NCBI RefSeq assembly: GCF_001028665.1
Contig: NZ_CP011503.1
Coordinates: 1,612,001 to 1,676,000 of the forward strand
DNA length: 64,000 nt
Reading direction: 5' to 3'
Origin: Burkholderia pyrrocinia
GTDB lineage: Bacteria; Pseudomonadota; Gammaproteobacteria; Burkholderiales; Burkholderiaceae
Numbering within the stretch: position 1 is the first letter of the stretch; every line of letters starts with the position of its first letter. Positions 24,197-63,529 of this stretch are shown in pieces. Position numbers and translations under genes: made by a program. The notes beneath the pieces are model-generated. The model saw only the letters and a list, made by a program, of their open reading frames with translations. It was not told the DNA's origin and ran no database searches.

Positions 24197-24228
24197 TTAG
24201 GTCATTTTCGGGAGCGTTGGTATATGAT
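24197..24228 (+). promoter_or_regulatory. Candidate promoter of the hemB-antipodal sRNA
   Basis: TATGAT at 24223-24228 is a good -10. The best upstream matches (TTAGGT at 24197-24202, or TCATTT at 24202-24207) have poor spacing or sequence, so the -35 is uncertain. Transcription would start at about 24235, where the first hairpin begins. The nearby palindrome GTAAGGACCTTAC (24177-24189) lies in the hemB leader and could be an operator. Confidence 0.4.
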
Positions 24229-24235
24229 AGCGATC

Positions 24236-24339
24236 GAGCGGCACGCGTCGCGTGCAGCTCCCCGCTTCTCCTCCCTGAGCGGGTGCCTGTCGTTTTTCGA
24301 TTAGGCTGTTTGACCCGCCGTTAAACGGCGGGTTTTTTT
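24236..24339 (+). ncRNA. Candidate small RNA divergent from hemB, with anti-Shine-Dalgarno loop
   Basis: About 104 nt with three hairpins. Hairpin 1 (24236-24260) pairs GAGC with GCTC and GCACGC with GCGTGC. Hairpin 2 pairs CCCGCT (24261-24266) with AGCGGG (24278-24283) and exposes an 11-base loop containing CTCCTCC, which is complementary to Shine-Dalgarno sequences. The third is a terminator: CCCGCCG (24314-24320) with CGGCGGG (24326-24332), then seven T's. There is no open reading frame of note. It matches my memory of a Burkholderia 'anti-hemB' structured-RNA candidate in placement and orientation, but I could not check the covariance model. Confidence 0.75.
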
Positions 24340-24405
24340 ATGAGCCGGCCGAATCCGCAGGCGCCGTCAGGTGCGCGCCGCCGATCCCGGCCGCGCGTTG
24401 CCCGA

Positions 24406-63292: not shown

Positions 63293-63300
63293 GGCCGACG

Positions 63301-63410
63301 ACGAAACAGGGGTGCTTCGTGCGTGGCCGGCAGATGTTCCAGGCGGCGCGGCGAGGCTGAGAAAGACCCTTCGCACCCGATCCGGGTAATACCGGCGAGG
63401 GAAGTTTCTG
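63301..63410 (+). promoter_or_regulatory. TPP riboswitch (THI element)
   Basis: The thiamine pyrophosphate aptamer is visible stem by stem. P1 pairs GAAAC (63303-63307) with GTTTC (63404-63408). P2 pairs GGGTGC (63310-63315) with GCACCC (63373-63378). The conserved CTGAGA is at 63357-63362. P4/P5 contains CCGGGTAATACCGG (63382-63395), and GGGAAG closes the aptamer. It lies upstream of thiO, consistent with repression by TPP. The downstream CCGGC/GCCGG inverted repeat near 63473-63490 followed by a broken T run may be the expression platform. Confidence 0.93.
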
Positions 63411-63529
63411 ATCCCGCCGGGCCGCGCTGGCTGCCATCCCACATGGTCAGCGCCCGAGTCCCGCCCGGCCGGCCTTTGCTGCCGGTTTCGTCCTTTTGGG
63501 TACGCGCATTGCGCGTTACGGAAGGAATG

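Follow-up and report, generated by a model that had tools for sequence, protein, structure and literature searches.

The window analysed here is a stretch of 64,000 nucleotides from Burkholderia pyrrocinia (contig NZ_CP011503.1, positions 1,612,001 to 1,676,000). It contains a short RNA gene on the plus strand (24235..24339), flanked by two protein genes on the minus strand. On one side lies the divergent hemB gene (ALAD, PF00490; 23154..24152), and on the other a convergent GTPase gene (PF01926; 24406..25065), which we take to be of the engB/ysxC type. The initial annotation had proposed a small RNA (sRNA) lying head-to-head with hemB and recalling the anti-hemB motif, and both points hold. 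The Rfam covariance model of anti-hemB (RF02837), run with cmscan, matches positions 24259-24341 of the plus strand over model positions 1-81 with 85.1 bits (gathering cut-off 49.5, E-value 1.3e-18). The ends of the gene are inferred for this strain from the Rfam match, the fold and the published length of the transcript. With a start at 24235, the RNA would have 105 nt up to 24339, which equals that length. Elsewhere in the window, a TPP riboswitch (RF00059) is found at 63298-63420 on the plus strand with 65 bits.

The candidate is thus an already known and already detected sRNA, called anti-hemB (Burkholderia RNA 7) in Rfam and ncS04 in Burkholderia cenocepacia. The motif was reportedly first discovered by comparative genomics. 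The RNA in the window agrees with the known one in model score, length and orientation to the neighbouring genes. In B. cenocepacia J2315, ncS04 is given at 292949..293053 on the plus strand with 105 nt and the alternative name anti-hemB, its 3' end was mapped by RACE and dRNA-seq, a Northern panel is shown and Hfq binding is cited (PMC5688073). The same paper reports no significant change by qPCR in seven conditions, including low iron, low pH and osmotic stress. A second source lists "co-purification with Hfq" and the neighbours BCAL0264/BCAL0265 in the same orientation as in the window (PMC4603805), while anti-hemB of B. pseudomallei is listed as a computed trans-acting RNA (PMC3521395). 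The independent, Hfq-linked sRNA of about 105 nt that the initial annotation had predicted is therefore in print for J2315, by Northern blot, 3'RACE and Hfq co-purification, and the existence of a plus-strand transcript is settled for that strain. NcS25, NcS27 and NcS35 are the members of the J2315 sRNA set with further characterization according to a review (PMC10987360). No functional study of anti-hemB/ncS04 was found in the open-access literature, subscription papers and supplements lying outside this scope. The RNA itself is not new. New here, compared with RF02837 and ncS04 as published, are a covarying 5' hairpin, a wide host range, a sigma-E-like promoter in relatives and a complement of the RNA in the rpoE leader.

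The region folds into four predicted hairpins. The folding energy of 24234-24338 is -54.5 kcal/mol, compared with -34.7 +/- 3.4 kcal/mol for 200 dinucleotide shuffles, none of which was equally stable (z -5.85). The complementary strand folds nearly as well (z -5.72), so that stability does not settle the strand, and the assignment to the plus strand rests on the Rfam model, the terminator and the published transcript. P1 (24236..24260), not covered by the Rfam model, which spans P2 to P4, is seen in the fold and in the pairs of the alignment described below (A1). P2 (24261..24283; Rfam alignment, fold and A1) carries the C-rich loop UUCUCCUCCCUGA (24266..24278) with the core CCUCCCUGA (24270-24278). 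P3 (24285..24306) is found by both the Rfam model and the fold. P4 (24312..24339; Rfam, terminator list and fold) is an intrinsic terminator with the hairpin at 24312-24334 and seven T at 24333-24339. Hairpins ending in a terminator had been described in the initial annotation; the terminator stands, but there are four hairpins rather than three. The 11-base loop with CTCCTCC that it had read as an exposed anti-Shine-Dalgarno sequence agrees with the Rfam model, which gives P2 an 11-nt loop containing CUCCUCC.

The RNA is widespread. RF02837 exceeds its cut-off in 117 of 150 family genomes and 196 of 300 order genomes (the order in GTDB comprises the Betaproteobacteria), but in none of 14 control genomes. 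Our own model R1 finds the RNA in all 27 selected genomes and in 17 of 25 Burkholderiaceae picked by genus. An exact-match scan with CTTCTCCTCCCTGAGCG returns at least 120 stretches; among the matches listed, 103 have the stem, 90 of these have both hemB and the GTPase gene in place, and the hosts include Thiobacillus, Methylovorus, Paucimonas, Undibacterium and Pandoraea. At least two genomes hold several copies, six matches in G360 (loci L187, L215 and L216) and three in G180 (loci L286, L311 and L312). Some of these copies lie close together, and at the thresholds applied rpoE was not found as TIGR02939 in either genome.

Conservation was studied in alignment A1, which has 36 rows out of the 80 sequences remaining after 8 of 88 were removed. 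The columns CCTCCCTGAG of the P2 loop are invariant in all 36 rows and the preceding bases are variable; as sequences entered the alignment through a match to the Rfam model or to the motif and stayed if the core was present, this conservation is partly a product of selection. At other loci the core variants CCTCCCTGGG, CCTCCCTAAG and CACTCCCTGAG are seen. The initial annotation had named a lack of covariation in the stems among Burkholderia species as a refutation, and the answer differs between hairpins. In P1, all seven pairs show two-sided changes, here across the Betaproteobacteria and not just Burkholderia, each pair being broken or absent in 1 to 10 rows. P2 hardly varies, and A1 blurs P3 and P4, with RNAalifold giving no P3 and only three pairs of P4. 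Folded singly, 80 of 81 representatives adopt the four-hairpin fold. When stem arms are swapped between sequences, pairing is 0.47-0.49 for P1, P3 and P4 and 0.91 for P2; only these swapped values inform, since own pairing is 100% by construction, and 7 of 88 representatives were dropped beforehand. The P4 loop of many non-Burkholderia loci (for example L085 and L163) has a recurrent CU-rich sequence, CTCCCCTTT, that is not in the window copy.

hemB is the divergent neighbour at 202 of 240 loci that bear the loop core. At 193 of them both usual neighbours are present and at 9 hemB alone, while 8 loci have the GTPase gene alone and 30 have neither; this set includes close relatives and certain genomes twice. 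The 30 is an upper figure, as L211 was mislocated and has both genes and the flank of L142 is too short. At L290, L296, L300, L310 and L210, the GTPase gene lies upstream on the same strand, and at Methylophilaceae-type loci groEL replaces the usual neighbour (L203, L223, L045, L050 and L100, by eye, among the matches listed). A cis regulator or antisense RNA of hemB is scarcely credible against this background. The linkage to hemB is not constant, as would be a feature of a cis regulator, for 38 of 240 loci (again an upper figure) are without hemB in its usual place. Furthermore, the inferred transcript has its start some 82 nt ahead of the hemB start codon and points in the opposite direction, so that the two transcripts diverge. 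As the form of the RNA is kept at loci without an adjacent hemB, the position opposite hemB carries little functional weight.

The promoter region of the window copy (24200..24234, plus strand) was read from the sequence, partly by eye. It contains TATGAT at 24223-24228 (by eye) within a Burkholderiaceae-type block, GGTATATGATAG. The -35 block is AGGTCATTTT in the window and its nearest kin, and GGAAACTTTT at the same place in Paraburkholderia-type relatives. At the window locus, no sigma-70 site passes a simple promoter scan, and there is no sigma-E-type promoter but AGGTCATTTT...TATGAT instead.

In many other lineages, GGAACTT-N16/17-TCTNA is found upstream of the RNA. This is the form of the ECF02/sigma-E promoter consensus. 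The pattern [GT]GAAC-N16..21-TCNNW occurs at 94 of 148 unique loci of non-Burkholderia type, compared with 1.8 expected in shuffles and 18 of 4030 control windows; the pattern was written after the sequences had been read, and 68 loci with the block TATATSATA were set aside. The spacing is regular, with 18 or 19 nucleotides from GGAAC to TCTNA in 88 of 96 aligned motifs. Methylovorus mays (L055) and Thiobacillus denitrificans (L095) are among the named hosts whose loci carry the motif. A first version of the pattern, which also accepts the Paraburkholderia/Pandoraea form GAAAC-N-TCATA, occurs at 103 of 187 unique loci, where shuffles would give 1.4, and is met in 7 of 3485 control windows. The Burkholderiaceae-type block TATATSATA is found at 68 of 216 unique loci, of which 6 have the sigma-E-like motif. 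The motif is also missing in other lineages, for example in f5, f17 and f48 genomes, and the GAAAC form persists in Paraburkholderia and Pandoraea. The motif looks to have been mostly lost at Burkholderia-type loci. No paper tying anti-hemB to sigma-E was found among the open-access entries listed for sigma-E and sRNAs.

The rpoE genes were fetched as TIGR02939 from 28 of 30 and 29 of 30 genomes, with the initial aim of checking for a shared promoter. A strict promoter pattern occurs upstream of only 2 of 28 rpoE genes. A relaxed pattern, GAAC[TC]-N14..18-GTC[TA], devised after GAACTA-N-GTCT had been seen in the leaders, occurs within 420 nt of rpoE in 37 of 56 genomes and in 131 of 979 control windows. 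By genome, 34 have a motif at both the sRNA and rpoE, 8 at the sRNA alone, 3 at rpoE alone and 11 at neither.

Many rpoE starts were found to carry UCAGGGA, the complement of UCCCUGA in the P2 loop, and both CAGGGA and TCAGGGA are complementary to the loop core CCUCCCUGA. UCAGGGA can in addition act as a ribosome-binding site, though a weak one. Of 57 genomes, 22 have CAGGGA and 16 have TCAGGGA in the roughly 30 nt that precede rpoE, each compared with 1 of 314 background genes (3 and 2 of 314 when any start codon in the first 40 is allowed); the background start codons are crude and the background window is slightly unlike that of rpoE. In a census without a preset motif, CAGGGA ranks first among the 6-mers of the rpoE leaders (24 of 57 genomes, 18 of 39 families), as does TCAGGGA among the 7-mers (16 of 57 genomes, 14 of 39 families), the family counts handling the kinship of the genomes in part, while 313 background leaders from 15 genomes have them 4 and 2 times. 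TATACT, a -10-like box, ranks next.

The complement also goes with the promoter. CAGGGA is present at rpoE in 21 of the 42 genomes with a promoter motif at the sRNA, compared with 1 of 14 others; the remaining 21 of the 42 have an rpoE leader without it. One of the 42 (G011) is a Burkholderia with a probably false promoter match, and the sole CAGGGA genome of the 14 (G226) does carry GGAACTT upstream of the sRNA. In Burkholderiaceae, CAGGGA is found in none of 26 rpoE leaders (6 + 20), and many of these have UCAGGUGAG at the start. Outside Burkholderiaceae, these sequence data favour a single specific partner that recurs, the rpoE leader.

Duplex energies give a less distinct picture. In 47 genomes with GGAAC or TGAAC upstream, two of them Burkholderia genomes admitted by the loose pattern, a median of 4.8% of background genes pair with the loop as well as or better than rpoE, and the figure is 10.8% in 9 others. 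In 11 of the 47, rpoE ranks at 1% or better, and none of 60 loop shuffles, ranked against 150 background genes, placed rpoE at 4.8% as the real loop does. By this measure rpoE is a good, but not the best, partner. However, five of six Burkholderiaceae rpoE leaders that lack the site are also at 4.8%, so that duplex energy alone does not separate Burkholderiaceae from other genomes. Because of this failure, some of our confidence moved from feedback on rpoE to a general repressor and to a role as a protein-binding RNA or sponge, both discussed below.

A scan of six genomes met TCAGGGAR-N3..10-ATG at 119 places, compared with 25 for the reversed pattern. Of these places, 117 were examined (the two omitted being one beside the rpoE of G192 and one overlapping duplicate), and 55 have an ORF of at least 60 amino acids. 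The scan met rpoE in G183 (L334) and, by coordinates, in G192; the six genomes had been chosen for TCAGGGA at rpoE, so this recovery is not independent evidence. The only protein that recurs between genomes among the 55 ORFs is a family-2 glycosyltransferase, in two genomes. Its genes (L378 and L388) have TTCAGGGAA ahead of the start.

We suggest, tentatively and with slightly less than even confidence, that anti-hemB is a trans-acting sRNA suited to Hfq that ancestrally was induced by sigma-E and blocked translation of rpoE, and that this circuit was uncoupled in Burkholderia, where the RNA would have other targets. The RNA would be made from its own short gene, with four hairpins and a U-tail suited to Hfq, and the core of its P2 loop, CCUCCCUGA, would pair with ribosome-binding sites and so block translation. 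Most of the betaproteobacterial lineages sampled outside Burkholderiaceae have a sigma-E-type promoter at the gene, and roughly half of these have (U)CAGGGA, complementary to the loop core, in the rpoE leader. The most likely outcome there would be negative feedback, in which sigma-E drives synthesis of an sRNA that in turn curbs the production of further sigma-E. The -35 element is gone from Burkholderia, where the sRNA is retained and would be made from a sigma-70-like promoter and directed at other targets. From motif, spacing, complementarity and joint occurrence we infer the use of the promoter by RpoE, the pairing in cells, the repression and the feedback. A stronger version, in which the RNA is sigma-E-induced across the class, its loop was kept chiefly for the rpoE ribosome-binding site, and Burkholderia broke both sides and reused the RNA, perhaps on a hydrolase mRNA, is possible but doubtful.

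The proposed logic is shared with MicA and RybB of enterobacteria, in which a sigma-E promoter, Hfq and repression by pairing at mRNA leaders come together. However, the targets of those sRNAs are omp mRNAs (PMC1804206), while the target proposed here is rpoE, and the window copy has no sigma-E promoter. CT_532 of Bordetella pertussis, which is MicA-like, is betaproteobacterial and Hfq-dependent like anti-hemB, and its level is similar without RseA, so no link to sigma-E is seen for it (PMC12235514).

The main competitor to feedback on rpoE is a general anti-Shine-Dalgarno repressor, whose CU-rich loop would pair with many purine-rich ribosome-binding sites, rpoE being one of many without special feedback. 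We regard it as doubtful, though still a serious candidate. The initial annotation had suggested broad repression of this sort, by likeness to alphaproteobacterial sRNAs with C-rich loops. Pairing of this kind has been proposed for double-hairpin RNAs, and Burkholderia loops read UUCUCCUCCC. Many genes equal rpoE in pairing energy, the site-less rpoE of Burkholderiaceae ranks at the median of the others, and the excess of TCAGGGAR-ATG places over the reversed pattern is what such a repressor would give. Predicted interactions of the CU-rich sRNAs of J2315 also cluster at ribosome-binding sites (PMC5688073). However, the loop varies least in CCUCCCUGAG and more in the bases ahead of it, and it is the complement of CCUCCCUGAG that is enriched in rpoE leaders (CAGGGA in 24 of 57, against 4 of 313 in the background).

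The promoter motif could also be genuine but serve a different ECF sigma factor, the rpoE complement then being only a conserved weak ribosome-binding site. GGAAC-like -35 boxes are common to ECF promoters, which leaves room for this; we consider it unlikely, as the regions upstream of rpoE carry a similar motif and the motifs of sRNA and rpoE go together in the genomes compared above. That the RNA binds a protein or sponges other sRNAs instead of pairing with mRNAs is very unlikely. A loop that varies little over long times and belongs to the same class as that of RF02278 would fit such a role, but the Hfq co-purification printed for J2315 and the complementarity to the rpoE leader speak against it.

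If feedback on rpoE was the ancestral role, the Burkholderia copy should have another one, since neither the promoter motif nor the rpoE site is present. CAGGGAGG-N3..9-ATG occurs 13 times in the genome of the window, compared with 4 for the reversed pattern. The perfect complement of the 13-nt loop, TCAGGGAGGAGAA, is found at two places only in this genome: the sRNA gene itself and the start of a gene for a PF10118 metal-dependent hydrolase (L517; G000:C2:2320153-2321500), for which the duplex with the loop has -25.0 kcal/mol. The complement is exact in 7 of 14 hydrolase orthologues of the genus. By eye, the same nucleotides can also be taken for the 3' end of an ORF that precedes the gene, so this conservation may be coding, and the hydrolase mRNA is a lead only. 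In the CAGGGAGG scan, a porin gene (L507, L508) was met in two of five Burkholderia genomes.

Candidates for further copies in the genome of the window were rejected. Of 31 RF02837 matches, 30 are below the cut-off, and the seven weak ones examined elsewhere in the genome (L002-L008) are not anti-hemB: three are RF02278 RNAs, one overlaps ncS037 and three have no Rfam match there. RF02278, the Betaproteobacteria toxic sRNA, resembles anti-hemB in that a terminator follows a hairpin whose loop is of the UCUCCUCC type, but has two hairpins instead of four. Its three copies (L003, L006 and L007, near 1497-1564) have UCUCCUCC-type loops, and L006 also holds the RNase P RNA. Within the window, cmscan gave no RF02278 match. 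Such double-hairpin RNAs, ncS27 among them, have been likened in print to S17 of Bordetella.

The gain for the window is modest, as the RNA was already known. For the family, a named RNA without a known function, found across a bacterial class, gains a specific and testable role. If that role is true, sigma-E would drive an sRNA directed at its own mRNA, a simple way to build feedback into the envelope-stress response, and Burkholderia, having lost both halves, would illustrate the rewiring of a circuit of this kind.
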